Below are positions 963 through 53,553 of a stretch of DNA of 64,000 bases, piece by piece. The position numbers were made by a program, and so were the translations under genes. Origin of the DNA: Paragemmobacter amnigenus (GTDB lineage Bacteria > Pseudomonadota > Alphaproteobacteria > Rhodobacterales > Rhodobacteraceae). The notes beneath the pieces are model-generated. The model was not told the DNA's origin. It searched no databases and saw only the letters and a program-made list of their open reading frames with translations. The stretch lies in the NCBI RefSeq assembly GCF_009908265.2, contig NZ_JAAATX020000010.1, positions 124,001 through 188,000 of the forward strand. The letters are read 5' to 3'. Every line of letters begins with the position of its first letter. Positions within the stretch are counted from its first letter, which is position 1.

Positions 963-2723
963 ATGTCCGACTCGCCCGAAAAGGCCTATCAGGTCCTCGC
1001 CCGCAAATACCGCCCGCAGACCTTCGCCGATCTCATCGGGCAAGAGGCGATGGTGCGCACGCTCAAGAACGCCTTTGCCGCCGACCGCATCGCCCATGCC
1101 TTCGTGATGACCGGCGTGCGCGGCGTGGGCAAGACCACCACCGCCCGCATCATCGCCAAGGGGCTTAACTGCATCGGCCCCGACGGCACCGGCGGCCCCA
1201 CCACCGAACCCTGCGGCATCTGCGAACCCTGCCGCGCCATCGCCGAAGGCCGCCACGTCGACGTGATGGAGATGGACGCCGCCTCCCGCACCGGCGTGGG
1301 CGACATCCGCGAGATCATCGACAGCGTCCACTACCGCGCCGCCTCCGCGCGCTACAAGATCTACATCATCGACGAAGTGCACATGCTGTCGAACAACGCG
1401 TTCAACGCGCTGCTCAAGACGCTGGAAGAACCCCCCGCACACGTCAAATTCATCTTCGCCACCACCGAAATCCGCAAGGTTCCCGTCACGGTCCTGTCGC
1501 GCTGCCAGCGCTTCGACCTCAAACGGATCGAACCCGAGGTGATGATGGCCCACCTCACCCGCGTGGCCTCTGCCGAAGGCGCGACCCTTGCGCCCGACGC
1601 GCTCGCCCTCATCACCCGCGCCGCCGAAGGCTCGGTCCGCGATGCCATGTCGCTGATGGATCAGGCCATCGCCCATGGCGCGGGCGAAACCTCCGCCGCG
1701 CAGGTCCGCGCCATGCTGGGCCTTGCCGACCGTGGCCGCGTCCTCGACCTCTTCGACCTCATCGCCACGGGCGATGCGGCGGGCGCGCTCTCCGAACTCG
1801 CCGCCCAATATGCCGACGGCGCCGACCCCGTCGCCATCCTGCGCGATCTGGCCGAGATCACGCATTGGCTCTCGGTCATCAAGATCACCCCCGCCGCGGC
1901 CGAGGACCCCACCACCCCCCCCGACGAACGCGCGCGCGGGCTGGATATGGCGGGCCGTCTGGGCAAACGCGTCCTCGCCCGCCTCTGGCAGATGCTGCTC
2001 AAGGCGCTGGAAGAGGTGACGATCGCCCCCAACGCCATGATGGCCGCCGAAATGGCCGTCATCCGCCTTACCCACGTGGCCGACCTGCCCGATCCCGAAA
2101 CCCTGATCCGCCAGTTGCAGGACAACCCGCCCCCGACCGGCGGCCCCCGCCCCACCGGCGGCGCCCCCGCAGGCGGCGGCGGCGGCACGCTGCACGCCCC
2201 CGCCATGCGCCTGGCCCCCGCCAGCGCACCCGCGCGCGGCCCCGTCATGCAGGGCAATCAGGCCCTCGCGCTCGCCGAAGGCCAGCTTCAGGTCTACGCC
2301 ACCTTCGACAGCGTCCTCGACCTGATCCGCGAAAAGCGCGACATGAAACTGCTCTACGAGGTGGAACACGGCCTCCGCCTCGTCCGCTACAGCCCCGGCC
2401 GGATCGAATTCCAGCCCACCCCCGACGCGCCCCCCGACCTCGCCGCCCTCCTCGGCGCGCGGCTGCAAGGCTGGACCCAGGCCCGCTGGGGCGTCTCGGT
2501 CGTGAACGAAGGCGGCGCCCCCACCGTGGCCGAGGAACGCGACCGCGCCGAAACCGAAGCCCGCGCCGAGGCGATGCATAACCCGCTGGTCCAGGCCGTC
2601 CTCGCCGCCTTCCCCGGCGCGAAGATCGCCGAGATCCGCACCCCCGAGGCGCTCGCCGCCGCAGCACAGGCCGAAGCCCTGCCCGAAGTGGAAGACGAAT
2701 GGGACCCCTTCGAAGACGGCTGA
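963..2723 (+). CDS. dnaX: DNA polymerase III subunit gamma/tau
   Basis: This is the ATPase motor of the replicative clamp loader. The Walker A motif GVRGVGKTTTAR is at residues 51-62, four zinc-binding cysteines are at C70, C84, C87 and C90, and the Walker B/sensor segment IIDEVHMLS starts near 136. A proline/glycine-rich linker at roughly 390-430 precedes a tau-like C-terminal domain. The start at 963 is preferred over an in-frame ATG 21 bases upstream because AAGGAG lies at 952-957. Length is 586 aa. I see no A-rich slippery heptamer of the E. coli kind, so a gamma form by frameshifting is not evident. The 3' end overlaps the next gene by 25 bp. Confidence 0.97.
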   Translation: MSDSPEKAYQVLARKYRPQTFADLIGQEAMVRTLKNAFAADRIAHAFVMTGVRGVGKTTTARIIAKGLNCIGPDGTGGPTTEPCGICEPCRAIAEGRHVDVMEMDAASRTGVGDIREIIDSVHYRAASARYKIYIIDEVHMLSNNAFNALLKTLEEPPAHVKFIFATTEIRKVPVTVLSRCQRFDLKRIEPEVMMAHLTRVASAEGATLAPDALALITRAAEGSVRDAMSLMDQAIAHGAGETSAAQVRAMLGLADRGRVLDLFDLIATGDAAGALSELAAQYADGADPVAILRDLAEITHWLSVIKITPAAAEDPTTPPDERARGLDMAGRLGKRVLARLWQMLLKALEEVTIAPNAMMAAEMAVIRLTHVADLPDPETLIRQLQDNPPPTGGPRPTGGAPAGGGGGTLHAPAMRLAPASAPARGPVMQGNQALALAEGQLQVYATFDSVLDLIREKRDMKLLYEVEHGLRLVRYSPGRIEFQPTPDAPPDLAALLGARLQGWTQARWGVSVVNEGGAPTVAEERDRAETEARAEAMHNPLVQAVLAAFPGAKIAEIRTPEALAAAAQAEALPEVEDEWDPFEDG

Positions 2724-3106
2724 CAACCGCCGCCGCCCTCCTCCTCCCCGCCCCCGCATGGGCCGGAACCTGCGCGACGATCCGCCCCGACTGGACCGCC
2801 GCCGCAGGCCCGCAGGGCTGGCTTGCCGAAACCGCCTATATCCTCGCCTCGCCCCCCGCGCTCATCCTCTTCCTCCTCCTCGCGCTCGCGCTGGTGATCC
2901 CGCGCCTCTGGCTCGCCATCCCCGCCGCGCTGCTGGCGCTGGCCTTCGCAGCCCTCCTCACCGTCTCGCGCCAGGCCGACATGGCCGCCCTCGCACAGGC
3001 CGAAGGCTGCCTTGCCACCGCCCTTCCCGCCACGATCCTCCTCGTCCTCGCCGCCCTCCTCCCCATCGCCCGCGCCCTCGTCCGCCGCCGCCGCCGCCCC
3101 GCCTGA
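2699..3106 (+). CDS. Small secreted/membrane protein of unknown function
   Basis: This is a 135-residue ORF overlapping the end of dnaX by 25 bp. It begins with a basic stretch and a hydrophobic segment ending in APAWAG, which looks like a signal peptide. It then has two or three hydrophobic stretches (about residues 50-85 and 105-122) and ends in an arginine-rich tail. I do not recognise a family. Its position between dnaX and ybaB and its coherent membrane-protein composition argue for a real gene. The long overlap and lack of a clear separate ribosome-binding site keep confidence moderate; translation may be coupled to dnaX. Confidence 0.55.
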   Translation: MGPLRRRLTTAAALLLPAPAWAGTCATIRPDWTAAAGPQGWLAETAYILASPPALILFLLLALALVIPRLWLAIPAALLALAFAALLTVSRQADMAALAQAEGCLATALPATILLVLAALLPIARALVRRRRRPA

Positions 3107-25298: not shown

Positions 25299-26216
25299 TC
25301 ACGCCATGATCCGGCGGGCGACCATTTCGGCGCGGGCGAGGTGGCTGATGTGGATCGGGTCGTCGGGGGCAAGGCGCGGCATCGTCCAGCCGACCGAGGC
25401 AAGGGTGCGCGCCATCGTGAAAAGTTCCACGCTTTCAACGTCTTGCGTGCCGTATCCGGCCATCAGCGCATCGCGCAATTCGTCGCGGGCGGGTTCGTAT
25501 TGGTTCTGGGACAGGACGGTTCCGAGGTCGTAGAGGCGGTAGCCGAAGCCGCTGTCGTCGAAATCGATCAGGGCGGGGTAACTTTCGGAAAACAGGACGT
25601 TTTCGCGCAGGACATCGGCGTGGATCAGGCCGATGGGGGGATTGGTGCGGTCCAGATGCAACCGTACCGCATCCCGTGCCGCAAGCAGTACCGCACGTTG
25701 TACATACGCAGCGCGCGGATGGTCCCAGAAGCGGCCCCAGAAGGGGGCCTCGCCCACCAGACCCCCGGCATCCCATCGGGGGCGGGTGAAGGTGGCGGGC
25801 AGGGTCAGGCCGTCGCTGGCGGTGTGCAGACGGCGCAGCAGTTGGCCGAGGCGGAAGTGTCGGTCGGTCTGGATGGCGACGGGTTCGGGAAAGGGCACAC
25901 CCGCCGTGCCAAGGGGCGTGCCGTCGATCCAGCGCACGACGCTGGCGAGGCGGCCGGTGGCGAGGGGTTCGAGCAGGTTGCCCGCGCGGGATTCGACGGG
26001 GGTCGCAACCGGCAGGCCCAGCGCGGCGAGTTCGCTGCACCACCAGAGTTCCGAGGCGATGGATGCCTGCGTCTGGTAGCCGATGCGGTGCAGGCGCAGG
26101 GCGGCGCGGGTACCGTCGGGCAGGGCGATTTCGTGGACGGCGTTTTCGCGGGCGAGGATCAGGCGGACATGGGTCGCGCCCCATAGCGCGGCGGCGGCGC
26201 GGGCTTCGTCAGTCAT
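25299..26216 (-). CDS. Phosphotransferase of the aminoglycoside/homoserine kinase fold (SrkA-like)
   Basis: A 305-residue kinase-fold protein. The catalytic Brenner motif is LIHADVLRENVLF and the metal-binding segment is LIDFDDSGFGYRLYDLG. Both fit the APH/SrkA/CotH-like group that phosphorylates small molecules or serine residues; the substrate cannot be told. Residues about 170-186 are encoded by a copy of the dodecamer repeat (25660-25707), although the peptide still looks like an ordinary helix. It overlaps arfB by 8 bp and is probably co-transcribed with it. Confidence 0.8.
   Translation of the reverse strand: MTDEARAAAALWGATHVRLILARENAVHEIALPDGTRAALRLHRIGYQTQASIASELWWCSELAALGLPVATPVESRAGNLLEPLATGRLASVVRWIDGTPLGTAGVPFPEPVAIQTDRHFRLGQLLRRLHTASDGLTLPATFTRPRWDAGGLVGEAPFWGRFWDHPRAAYVQRAVLLAARDAVRLHLDRTNPPIGLIHADVLRENVLFSESYPALIDFDDSGFGYRLYDLGTVLSQNQYEPARDELRDALMAGYGTQDVESVELFTMARTLASVGWTMPRLAPDDPIHISHLARAEMVARRIMA
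25660..25707 (-). repeat. Dodecamer-array repeat, copy 2 (inside a CDS)
   Basis: On the minus strand four 12-nt units run without gap: GTATGTACAACG, TGCGGTACTGCT, TGCGGCACGGGA, TGCGGTACGGTT. The preceding GCGCTGC extends the match to copy 1 to 16 identical bases. It lies within the phosphotransferase gene, in the same strand and in frame with it. Confidence 0.7.
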
Positions 26217-26634
26217 CGTCGCCGTCCACCTTGCCGCGCAGGGACTTGACCTCTCCCCTTACCGATTTGGCGGCGAGGCGGCGGCGCTGGCTGCCCAGCG
26301 TCGGCTTGGTGGCGATGCGGCGTTTCGGGGTGACGAGGGCCTGACGGATCAGGTCGGCCAGACGGTCGCGCGCGATCTCGCGGTTGCGGGCCTGGCTGCG
26401 CGTTTCGTCGACCTGGATGACGATGGCGCCTTCGGTCGTCCAGCGGCGGCCGGCAAGGCGTTTGAGGCGGGATTTCACGGGGTCGGACAGGTGGGGGGAG
26501 CGCGCGGCCTCGAACCGCAATTCGACCGCGGTGGAGACCTTGTTCACGTTCTGCCCGCCGGGACCGGAGGCGCGGATGAACTGTTCGGTCAGTTCCCAAT
26601 CGGCGATGGCGAGGGTTTCGGTGATGTGCAGCAT
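26209..26634 (-). CDS. arfB: Peptidyl-tRNA hydrolase ArfB (ribosome rescue)
   Basis: ArfB frees stalled ribosomes by hydrolysing peptidyl-tRNA without a stop codon. The 141-residue protein has the release-factor GGQ motif (SGPGGQNVNK, GGQ at 26-28). Its C-terminal tail is rich in lysine and arginine (KPTLGSQRRRLAAKS) and inserts in the mRNA channel in known homologues. Start at 26634 by homology; an upstream TTG is possible. It is preceded by a hairpin and a tiny ORF with an extreme Shine-Dalgarno, and overlaps the phosphotransferase gene. Confidence 0.93.
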   Translation of the reverse strand: MLHITETLAIADWELTEQFIRASGPGGQNVNKVSTAVELRFEAARSPHLSDPVKSRLKRLAGRRWTTEGAIVIQVDETRSQARNREIARDRLADLIRQALVTPKRRIATKPTLGSQRRRLAAKSVRGEVKSLRGKVDGDDD

Positions 26635-26651: not shown

Positions 26652-26680
26652 GAAAGGGTCGCCTGCGCGGCGACCCTTTC
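26652..26680 (-). terminator. Strong hairpin between the leader ORF and arfB
   Basis: GAAAGGGTCGCC and GGCGACCCTTTC form a perfect 12-bp stem with a 5-nt loop. On the minus strand only TCTTGC follows, so the U-run is poor. Placed between the small ORF at 26752-26808 and arfB (18 bp away), it could end the leader transcript or attenuate arfB. Confidence 0.7.
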
Positions 26681-26751
26681 CGAGATCCAAGGAGATGGGC
26701 CAGTTAGGTTTCAAGCCCAATCAGGTGGTCTGTCTGGCTGAGGGGCTGCCC

Positions 26752-26808
26752 TCAGAAAACACGCCTCCGGACTGTCCCGACACCTCTCTCCAATGTAGCT
26801 CTAGACAC
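26752..26808 (-). CDS. Candidate 18-residue leader peptide upstream of arfB
   Basis: GTG start at 26808 and TGA at 26752 give an 18-residue basic peptide reading VSRATLERGVGTVRRRVF. It is too short for automatic calling. The evidence for translation is the ribosome-binding site: AAGGAGG ends 7 nt before the GTG, inside a 17-nt stretch complementary to the 16S tail, and a TTGACA box lies upstream. The peptide has five arginines and no match I recognise. It may be a regulatory leader for arfB or a highly expressed tiny protein; non-coding function is also possible. Confidence 0.45.
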   Translation of the reverse strand: MSRATLERGVGTVRRRVF

Positions 26809-26824
26809 TGGATCACCTCCTTTC
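26808..26824 (-). promoter_or_regulatory. Extended Shine-Dalgarno complementary to the whole 16S rRNA tail
   Basis: The minus strand reads GAAAGGAGGTGATCCAG, complementary over 17 nt to the usual 16S 3' end CTGGATCACCTCCTTTC. Ordinary sites match 4-7 nt. A segment at 26689-26697 (minus-strand CATCTCCTT) can pair with AAGGAGGTG over 9 bp including one G-U, so the site could be hidden by the transcript itself. Confidence 0.75.
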
Positions 26825-26839
26825 GATGGGTTACCGATA

Positions 26840-26872
26840 GAGGTAGCGTGGCACAGATTTTGTGTTTGTCAA
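26840..26872 (-). promoter_or_regulatory. Candidate sigma-70 promoter for the leader ORF
   Basis: A perfect TTGACA (26867-26872 on the minus strand) lies just after the yhhQ stop. At 17-19 nt spacing the candidate -10 is weak (ACGCTA or GCTACC). Alphaproteobacterial promoters tolerate poor -10 boxes. It would start a transcript about 20-30 nt before the extended Shine-Dalgarno. Confidence 0.5.
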
Positions 26873-26878
26873 AGCCTT

Positions 26879-27502
26879 TTACGCTACCCTTGTGGCAAAG
26901 CGGCGGATGGCCAGACGGAAGGGCAGCAGCGCCACCACGTCCACCGCGATCTTGACCAGCCAGTCGGCGAAGCCCAGCGAGACCCAGAAGGGAACGGCGG
27001 GACCAAAGCCCAGAAGGGGCATGGTTTCGGCGGCCCATGACACGTCGTTGGCGGGTTCGAGGAAGGCGAAGGTCATCGAGAAGGCCAGCGTGAAGAAGAT
27101 CACGGTGTCGAGGGTGGAGCCGAGGAAGGTGGAGATGAAGGGCGCCTTCCACCATGCGGCGCGGCGCAGGCGGTCGAAGACGAAGATGTCCAGCAGTTGC
27201 GCGCAGAGGAAGGCGAGGCCCGAGCCCAGCGCCACGCGGATTGTGACGAGCGGACCGAATTCGCCCATGATCTGCGTGCCGATGGCCGAGCAGGCAAGGC
27301 CCGTGACGAAACCCGCATAGACCACGCGGCGGGCGGCGGCGGGGCCTTCCAGACGGTTGACGATGTCCGAGACGAGGAAGGCCAGCGGATAGGTGAAGGC
27401 ACCCCATGTCAGCCATGTGCCGATCGGATGCTGGACGAGGATGTTGGAGGCCACCACGACGATGGCCATGGCGGCGACGCCATAAAGCGAGATGCGGGTC
27501 AT
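26879..27502 (-). CDS. yhhQ: Queuosine precursor transporter, YhhQ/VUT family
   Basis: A 207-residue inner-membrane protein with about six helices. The family features are SNILVQHPIG near 20-29, LTWGAFTYPLAFLVSDIVNR near 33-52, a YAGFVTGL helix and an acidic FADWLVK near the end. Family members import queuosine precursors (preQ0/preQ1) for tRNA modification. The start at 27502 matches the family's N-terminus; a 16-residue extension lacks support. No preQ1 riboswitch is recognisable upstream. Confidence 0.88.
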   Translation of the reverse strand: MTRISLYGVAAMAIVVVASNILVQHPIGTWLTWGAFTYPLAFLVSDIVNRLEGPAAARRVVYAGFVTGLACSAIGTQIMGEFGPLVTIRVALGSGLAFLCAQLLDIFVFDRLRRAAWWKAPFISTFLGSTLDTVIFFTLAFSMTFAFLEPANDVSWAAETMPLLGFGPAVPFWVSLGFADWLVKIAVDVVALLPFRLAIRRFATRVA

Positions 27503-27589
27503 GTCAGATTCCGTTTTGACAAGGTCGCGGAGACTTGGCCCCCCGCGCATCGGGGGACGCGCGGCCCCTACGCCTGTGGCGCGGTGCTG

Positions 27590-52245: not shown

Positions 52246-53403
52246 TTAGGCGGCCTGCGCCAGTGCTGCGATTTCCGCGTGGAAGGCGTGGGCGATCCAC
52301 GGCATCAGGGCGGCGACATCGGCGGTTTCCACGGTCGATCCGCACCAGATGCGCAGGCCGGGGGGGGCGTCGCGATAGGCGCCCACGTCATAGGCCACGC
52401 CCGCCTTTTCCAGCCGTTTCGCCACGGCCTTGGCGAAGGCCGCGCCGTCGGTGATGCGGGGATCGGTAAATTTCAGGCAGACGGAGGTGGTGGAGGCGGT
52501 CGCGGCATCTTCGGCAAGGTTCGCGATCCACGGGTTGGCGGCGCAGAAATCCCAGACGGTGCGGGCATTCGCCTCGGCCCGCGCGACAAGGCCCTTAAGC
52601 CCGCCCAAGGATTTCGCCCATTTGAGGGCGACGAGGTAATCTTCCACCGCCAGCATGGAGGGGGTGTTGATCGTCTCGCCCACGAAGATGCCGTCGATCA
52701 GTTTGCCCTTCGACGTAAGGCGGAAGATTTTCGGCAGGGGCCAGGCGGGGGTGTAGGTTTCCAGACGCTCCACCGCGCGGGGGGACAGGATCAGCATGCC
52801 GTGCGCGCCCTCGCCGCCCAGCACCTTTTGCCAGGAGAAGGTGGTGACGTCGAGCTTGTCCCAGGGCAAGTCCATCGCGAAGGCGGCAGAGGTCGCGTCG
52901 CAGATGGTGAGGCCCGCGCGGTTGGCGGGGATGGCGTCGCCATTCGGGACGCGGACGCCGGAGGTGGTGCCGTTCCAGGTGAAGACCACGTCGGCGTCGA
53001 AATTCACGGTCGCAAGGTCGACGATCTGGCCGTAGGGGGCCTTTTTAACGGTGGCGTCGAGTTTGAGCTGTTTCACCACATCGGTGACCCAGCCTTCGCC
53101 GAAGGATTCCCATGCCAGCATTTCCACCGGACGGGCGCCGAGCATCGTCCACATCGCCATTTCCACGGCGCCGGTGTCGGAGCCGGGGACGATGCCGATG
53201 CGGTAATCGGCAGGGACGTTCAGGATTTCGCGGGTAAGGTCGATGGCTTCCTGCAGTTTCGCCTTGCCCACCGCCGCGCGGTGCGAGCGGCCCAGCGGCG
53301 CATCGGCAAGGTGGTTCAGGGTGAAGCCGGGGATCTTGGCGCAGGGGCCAGAGGAAAAGCGCGGATTGGCCGGGCGCTGTGCCGGTTGAGTCAGGTCTGT
53401 CAT
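52246..53403 (-). CDS. serC: Phosphoserine aminotransferase
   Basis: Second step of serine synthesis and also used for pyridoxal phosphate in some bacteria. The 385-residue aminotransferase has the PLP lysine K193 in [16 protein letters not shown], the [12 protein letters not shown] block (near 74-85) and [23 protein letters not shown] precedes the ATG at 53403. It starts the serC-serA operon and is divergent from serB, so all three serine enzymes are together. Confidence 0.95.
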
Positions 53404-53450
53404 GGTAGCCTTCCAGCTAAAAGCCCCTCGTTGGGGAGGGGTGTCCCACG
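53404..53450 (-). ncRNA. serC leader hairpin (serC-motif candidate)
   Basis: On the minus strand CCCCTC-CCCAAC-GAGGGG (53424-53441) is followed by CTTTTAGCTGGAAGG, which carries the serC ribosome-binding site. This closely resembles the serC RNA motif reported upstream of serC in alphaproteobacteria, a terminator-like hairpin next to the ribosome-binding site. Recognition is from memory of the motif; no covariance search was run. Confidence 0.6.
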
Positions 53451-53553
53451 GATGGGGATAGCGGGGCGGTCGGGGTGGCACAAGGCGGAAAATTGCCCTA
53501 AAGCGGCGGAACGTCGTGCGAAAGCGACGCGCAAGTTCACTATCGGAAACCTG

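Follow-up and report, generated by a model that had tools for sequence, protein, structure and literature searches.

A putative CC2171-like small RNA locus of Paragemmobacter amnigenus with an extended match to the 16S rRNA tail

Ribosome-dependent attenuators and leader peptides, peTrpL among them, follow a common plan in which a short ORF behind a strong Shine-Dalgarno sequence (SD) precedes pairing segments and a terminator. A second point of reference for the locus described here is the Caulobacter sRNA CC2171 (Rfam RF01867), for which a literature search, with the founding Caulobacter description lying outside its reach, returned no function. In the accessible text of the sources, CC2171 appears twice: the Rfam 15 paper gives it one row in a table of improved structures, and a list of Mesorhizobium sRNAs includes it. 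Nothing on it was found beyond these two. The accessible text of a Caulobacter ribosome profiling study states that two predicted ncRNAs are actually translated (PMC4117421), and that of the Rhodobacter papers yielded no named sRNA at the present locus.

The stretch analysed, hereafter the window, is 64,000 nucleotides of the Paragemmobacter amnigenus genome. RF01867 matches it with 35.8 bits (E 5.1e-6), short of the gathering cut-off of 75, and in a search of the genome the locus is the single match (E 9.9e-6). The 5' block of the family is present, comprising an AAC box, GAAAGGAGGUGAUCCA and the start codon; the upstream AAC recurs in 24/30 and 28/30 of the two best-30 hit sets described below. 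The profile alignment to the window contains many non-standard pairs relative to the Rfam structure, and separate consensus folds give a start-codon helix in both groups of relatives. Judged by this profile match and shared 5' block, the element is a divergent relative of CC2171. The initial annotation had described a TTGACA box, a 17-nt block, an 18-codon GTG ORF, a CATCTCC partner and a 12-bp hairpin, all of which are present on the minus strand where it had placed them. In transcript order, the features are as follows.

26879..27550, minus strand: queuosine precursor transporter gene, upstream neighbour, outside the element (NCBIfam TIGR00697; Pfam Vut_1)
26867..26872, minus strand: -35-like box TTGACA, read in the sequence; no good -10 scored
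26808..26824, minus strand: extended SD GAAAGGAGGTGATCCAG, complement of the 16S tail, its final G shared with the GTG start
26814..26820, minus strand: P1 5' strand GGAGGUG, the SD core (RNAalifold and pair counts, 67 relatives)
26805..26812, minus strand: P2 5' strand UCCAGUGU, including the start codon (consensus fold, window fold, pair counts)
26752..26808, minus strand: 18-codon ORF VSRATLERGVGTVRRRVF, GTG start 26808-26806, TGA stop 26754-26752
26789..26796, minus strand: P2 3' strand ACAUUGGA (T-L-E codons), partner of the start region; 97.6% of cells paired
26777..26780, minus strand: P3 5' strand UCGG; two-sided changes in 3/4 pairs
26700..26703, minus strand: P3 3' strand CUGG (pair counts)
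26697-26689, minus strand: CATCTCCTT, stretch 3' of the ORF that includes the CATCTCC partner of the SD
26691..26697, minus strand: P1 3' strand CAUCUCC, a segment resembling the 16S tail that faces the SD; 98.1% of cells paired
26652..26680, minus strand: perfect 12-bp hairpin GAAAGGGTCGCC/GGCGACCCTTTC with a weak T tract after it, a probable intrinsic terminator
26212..26634, minus strand: arfB, downstream neighbour, outside the element (NCBIfam NF006718, 189 bits; Pfam RF-1 domain)

A TTGAC[AG] box, counted by eye, is found in 25 of 27 aligned loci, our own included. A scan of the window for sigma-70 promoters and terminators scored neither by its own rules, the T tract of the hairpin being weak.

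Two further observations concern the surroundings. The promoter spacer holds a short dyad at 26865-26851 (minus strand), ACACA-AAATC-TGTGC, a possible operator; most genus relatives have ACACA-AAATC-TGTGT instead, and several other genera also retain the dyad. Elsewhere in the window, a serC leader lies at 53400-53451 on the minus strand (Rfam RF00517, 68.3 bits).

Pairing with the 16S tail and distribution

The 17-mer pairs without a gap with the 16S tail CUGGAUCACCUCCUUUC as found in family relatives, in line with the perfect complement first proposed for it. A short 16S motif was unmatched in all four genomes searched for it, so the complement was checked in the 16S rRNA of relatives. The reference was a 54-nt 16S 3' end, which matches, at 100% identity, database records that include those from Rhodobacter, Ruegeria, Paracoccus, Sulfitobacter, Alloyangia and Cereibacter. 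The 17-nt complement extends beyond the anti-SD toward helix 45. A Sinorhizobium 16S oligonucleotide, as given in the accessible text, begins GGCUGGAUCACCUCCUUUCUAAGG, the same tail (PMC6943124). Within the genus, the 17-mer occurs once per genome and only in the element, in 7/7 genomes searched, our own among them.

Further relatives were examined through RF01867 hits, taken as the best 30 from the family search and the best 30 from the alphaproteobacterial search and located with AAGGAGG[TC]G. The 13-nt core AAAGGAGGTG[AG]TC is present in 59 of these 60, the remaining one starting with G. Opposite one U of the 16S tail, the SD carries A in 51 hits, G in 9 and a pyrimidine in none; this purine stays single-stranded in each of the two consensus folds derived, those of the Rhodobacterales type and of the VSHC type described below. 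Across relatives, by sequence, the complementarity of the SD to the 16S tail spans 13 nt or more.

Conservation in close relatives had been set as a test of the initial proposal, and a DNA search recovered the locus in 18/18 same-genus relatives. Overall that search placed it in 33/61 genomes, our own included, and in 15/43 genera, some of the distant ones through the SD block alone. The exact SD with its start codon occurs in 36/385 alphaproteobacterial genomes, once in each, while the reversed pattern gave none. A scan of named genomes for the exact SD yielded at least 117 stretches; exact-SD loci form a sample biased toward the SD, and some loci from the DNA search and from the exact-SD scans are one place reached twice. 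The RF01867 profile matched 121/150 family genomes, 120 of them in single copy and one with a second, weak match, and left 29/150 unmatched, weak matches being dropped under stricter filters; the cut-off was reached in 0/150. In the wider class, 66/289 alphaproteobacterial genomes matched, 10 above the cut-off, and among 14 control genomes Caulobacter was the sole match. When 18 loci were scored directly (15 of other types, 3 of Rhodobacterales type), the 5 that exceeded the cut-off were all of other types.

Two trivial origins were considered and rejected. Recurrence in the DNA search (18/18 same-genus relatives; 33/61 genomes), together with the 121/150 family genomes matched and the 18-codon ORF shared by the best 30 hits, rules out a chance match. 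A remnant of a 16S gene was set aside because the window contains no rRNA match and the element is conserved as a separate unit.

Fold around the start site and the small ORF

Structure was compared in two alignments. Of 73 Rhodobacterales-type loci, 67 went into the first; five were omitted because their first 150 nt were identical, and one because it was cut. The second holds 24 of 29 VSHC-type loci (L033, L038, L071, L098 and L110 were left out as short or atypical). For the 67 relatives, RNAalifold returned P1 (SD with CAYCUCC), P2 (UCCAGUGU with AYAUUGGA), P3 and the terminator. In this fold 95.8% of cells are paired, versus 44-53% for slid controls, and two-sided changes occur in 14/30 pairs; 0/500 shuffles were equally high on any measure. 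The terminator hairpin carries two-sided changes in 10/11 counted pairs, and P2 in 1/8. Changes in P1 are nearly all C/U or A/G opposite the invariant SD and none is two-sided, because the SD side never varies. The locus in the window itself folds to -79.1 kcal/mol (z -3.97).

The suggestion that the SD could be hidden by a downstream partner was therefore borne out at the level of the consensus fold, in which P1 is present with 98.1% of cells paired. In the 24 VSHC-type relatives the start region is paired with GACCUGGA, likewise inside the ORF. In essence, comparison among relatives shows a conserved predicted fold that would compete for the 16S-matched start site through an internal tail-like segment.

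Model energies describe the terms of that competition. For Rhodobacterales loci the SD has a median unpaired probability of 0.01 and would cost 11.5 kcal/mol to open, a cost set against -31.0 kcal/mol for the 16S duplex; a 6-nt SD would net -1.6 kcal/mol. In the VSHC type the site is less well hidden, with an SD unpaired probability of 0.50. The effect in the window is modest, the SD being equally hidden in 3% of 200 flank-shuffled controls (simple, not dinucleotide, shuffles). The start codon was equally hidden in 35% of 200 such simple shuffles, and its occlusion in the window is therefore not unusual.

So strong a predicted duplex, with its reach toward helix 45, invites the idea of a trap or quality probe, in which a 17-nt pairing too long for productive initiation would capture 30S subunits, free or still immature, through their 16S tail. 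According to the accessible text of a 2026 study, bS21 of E. coli would be a steric obstacle to the extended SD helix observed in S. aureus (PMC13009471). A pure trap, however, would have no need of the start codon, spacing and ORF length that are conserved here, and we judge this reading improbable.

All 60 of the RF01867 hits examined begin the ORF with ATG or GTG at a single spacing, although the two bases preceding this codon vary in the best 30 alphaproteobacterial hits, and the ORF has exactly 18 codons in the best 30 family hits. Among the exact-SD loci listed, L121 has 20 codons and L072 is cut by the locus end. In 72 loci the stop is TGA in 32, TAG in 25 and TAA in 15. Rhodobacterales-type loci were chosen by an ORF length of 16, 18 or 20 codons together with an LE or VE motif, and no other length was seen for LE/VE-motif ORFs in the listed matches. 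Among those matches, the ORF type behind the extended SD in Rhodobacterales is VSRxxLExGVGT (18 codons); outside Rhodobacterales there are VSHC...W (21-26 codons), VSxxKRCHLAxxAR (14) and MSS... (20-31).

These observations bear on whether the element is a conventional antisense-type sRNA, its ORF fortuitous, whose CAYCUCC would target the SDs of other mRNAs. CC2171 is catalogued as an sRNA, conservation is at the RNA level (see below) and CAYCUCC, itself conserved, could base-pair with SDs elsewhere. Nevertheless, the exchange of ATG and GTG at fixed spacing and a stop that is kept while using three different codons point to translation, which leaves this explanation unlikely.

The peptide itself drifts. 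Diversity by codon position is alike in the Rhodobacterales ORFs (0.315, 0.324 and 0.301 in 60 distinct ORFs; 0.317, 0.320 and 0.299 in a second set, permutation p 0.67), and the third position is no freer in 3/4 ORF types (p 0.67, 0.87 and 1.0). Since the codon positions vary alike, the conservation is, on this comparison, at the level of RNA rather than peptide. A peptide gene was rejected on the same tests. A functional micropeptide expressed at a high rate would fit the recognisability of VSRxxLExGVGT in 62 distinct ORFs, at a substitution ratio of 0.68 of expectation, as well as the MSS (MSSE) type, where the ratio is 0.57 and the third position is slightly freer (p 0.0135). Set against the uniform codon positions in Rhodobacterales, a ratio of 1.25 in the VSHC type and peptides that differ from type to type, it is very unlikely. 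Translation initiation looks conserved, and the peptide not, or only weakly.

Terminator and relation to arfB

A terminator-like hairpin, recognised by a custom script made for this analysis, follows the stop in 71/71 Rhodobacterales-type loci versus 15/306 random places. The same holds in 69/83 other alphaproteobacterial loci (random 18/361) and in 10/18 others (random 2/85). From the terminator-like ends in 71/71 loci, an independent transcript is predicted.

The position of arfB is less regular. Counted by the pattern GGQ[NH]V[NSA]K (relaxed a little for loci of other types), arfB lies within 600 nt downstream in 52 of 68 Rhodobacterales-type loci with enough flank, a count that is not de-duplicated (L022 and L109 look like the same contig). 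It is absent nearby in 16/68, of which 15 still adjoin the upstream transporter gene; by a short C-terminal motif, that gene was recognised in 61/72 loci. Six genomes without a near arfB were examined. Two have the gene on the same strand, 1.4-1.6 kb downstream; in two others the distance is 16 kb and 224 kb. One carries it on another contig, and in the sixth (G004) it was not found. No downstream arfB was seen in the covered flanks of 103 loci of other types.

Two individual loci deserve mention. In the 1.5-Mb same-genus genome G004, the element (L021) is kept at 84% identity and no arfB was found. In a Hyphomonadaceae locus of MSS type (L113), arfB is divergently upstream, the sole arfB motif in the flanks of the 103 other-type loci.

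The initial annotation had presented the element as a leader of arfB. Under that reading, ribosomes that translate the ORF or stall within it would alter read-through of the hairpin and so set the ArfB level. Neighbourhood speaks for it: arfB is within 600 nt in the 52 loci counted above and in 24 of the best 30 family hits, its ATG in the window (26634) is 17 nt past the 12-bp hairpin with little room for a promoter, and two of the six exceptions still have arfB 1.4-1.6 kb downstream on the same strand. A cis leader would call for a constant position upstream of arfB, however, and 52/68 within 600 nt is short of that; the element persists in the 16 loci without a near arfB, the gene is far away or on another contig in three of the six genomes and not found in one, other types have none downstream in the flanks covered, and the consensus fold shows no anti-terminator. 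An arfB-only leader was rejected on the 16/68, the 0/103 and G004, and arfB control in the broader sense we consider unlikely. With a terminator-like hairpin in 71/71 loci and no near arfB in 16/68, the leader claim is not supported; of the two alternatives originally offered, arfB control comes out weak and a 16S-tail-binding RNA stronger, given its complementarity and fold. From its terminator-like ends and the gene order, the element is most readily regarded as an independent gene whose usual place in one family is ahead of arfB, and an arfB switch is probably not its purpose. Where arfB starts about 20 nt past the hairpin, with hardly room for a promoter, read-through may still set the level of arfB.

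Proposed mechanism and known systems

We tentatively favour, at somewhat less than even confidence, a stand-alone small transcript related to CC2171 and built around a translation start, whose state would depend on how many free 30S subunits are available. In the folded RNA the site would be closed, with the SD paired to the internal tail-like segment and the start codon to mid-ORF bases. Because the whole 16S tail could invade, a free 30S subunit would open the site, and the state of the RNA would follow 30S supply. Reading of the 18 codons would unfold P2 and P3; alternatively, the state of the RNA could track ribosome movement along it. The output may be an altered fold, stability or partner binding, and the ORF would be read for the act of translation, not for its product.

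How cells sense the supply of free ribosomes is a long-standing question, for which this element is a direct candidate. It is usually single-copy and present in most sampled family genomes and a good part of the sampled Alphaproteobacteria, and its match to almost the whole 16S tail is paired off in the predicted fold. Not only does the CC2171 family gain an anatomy, with a conserved translation start and ORF, but it also extends into Rhodobacteraceae, missed by the Rfam cut-off.

Tiny ORFs behind the same SD also occur in single contigs of other phyla among the matches listed. For instance, in the phylum of one Myxococcales record (L142) the SD is found in 16/188 genomes, the seed counted, and the reversed pattern in 0/188; 12/16 ORFs of this set (L142, L119, L252-L267) have 14-16 codons, with EVV or EVA near the end. 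It is possible, if doubtful, that a multi-phylum class of stand-alone mini-mRNAs exists, in which a near-full 16S-tail SD before a tiny drifting ORF senses the 30S pool or 3'-end maturity; its branches would be CC2171, Ms_IGR-5 and unnamed families in Myxococcota, Phycisphaerae and other groups.

Individual contigs give some further detail. The L142-phylum family has ORFs such as VDIDCTYTAGEVVHF and similar segments downstream. In Planctomycete contigs L081, L082, L084, L094 and L174 this SD comes with ORFs of 9-16 codons, and a terminator-like hairpin is present as well; L081, L084 and L174 have a GCTCGACGG segment in common past the stop. In Acidobacteria, L075 has an Ms_IGR-5 match at 2623-2818 (minus strand, 47.7 bits) that overlaps both a 19-codon ORF and an extended SD in its G variant.

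Several known systems resemble the element in part. Attenuators and leader peptides such as peTrpL, as far as the accessible text describes them, share the short strong-SD ORF, the pairing segments and the terminator, whereas the element lacks a fixed structural gene downstream, conserves its peptide little and shows no anti-terminator in its consensus fold. In Staphylococcus aureus, extended SD-anti-SD pairing likewise runs past the core SD toward the start codon; in the accessible text it is a general trait of many mRNAs, while the element is a single dedicated RNA, as a rule present in one copy, whose site is paired (PMC13009471). Ms_IGR-5 (RF02471, Actinobacteria) is linked by the acidobacterial match, which overlaps the same kind of extended SD and small ORF, but has no match in this genome or in any control genome. 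CC2171 shares the 5' block of AAC box, extended SD and start codon, the small ORF, the terminator-like end, the start-codon helix (in VSHC relatives) and usually one copy per genome; what sets the present element apart from it is an 18-codon VSRxxLExGVGT ORF of its own, a CAYCUCC partner of the SD past the stop, and its usual place before arfB.
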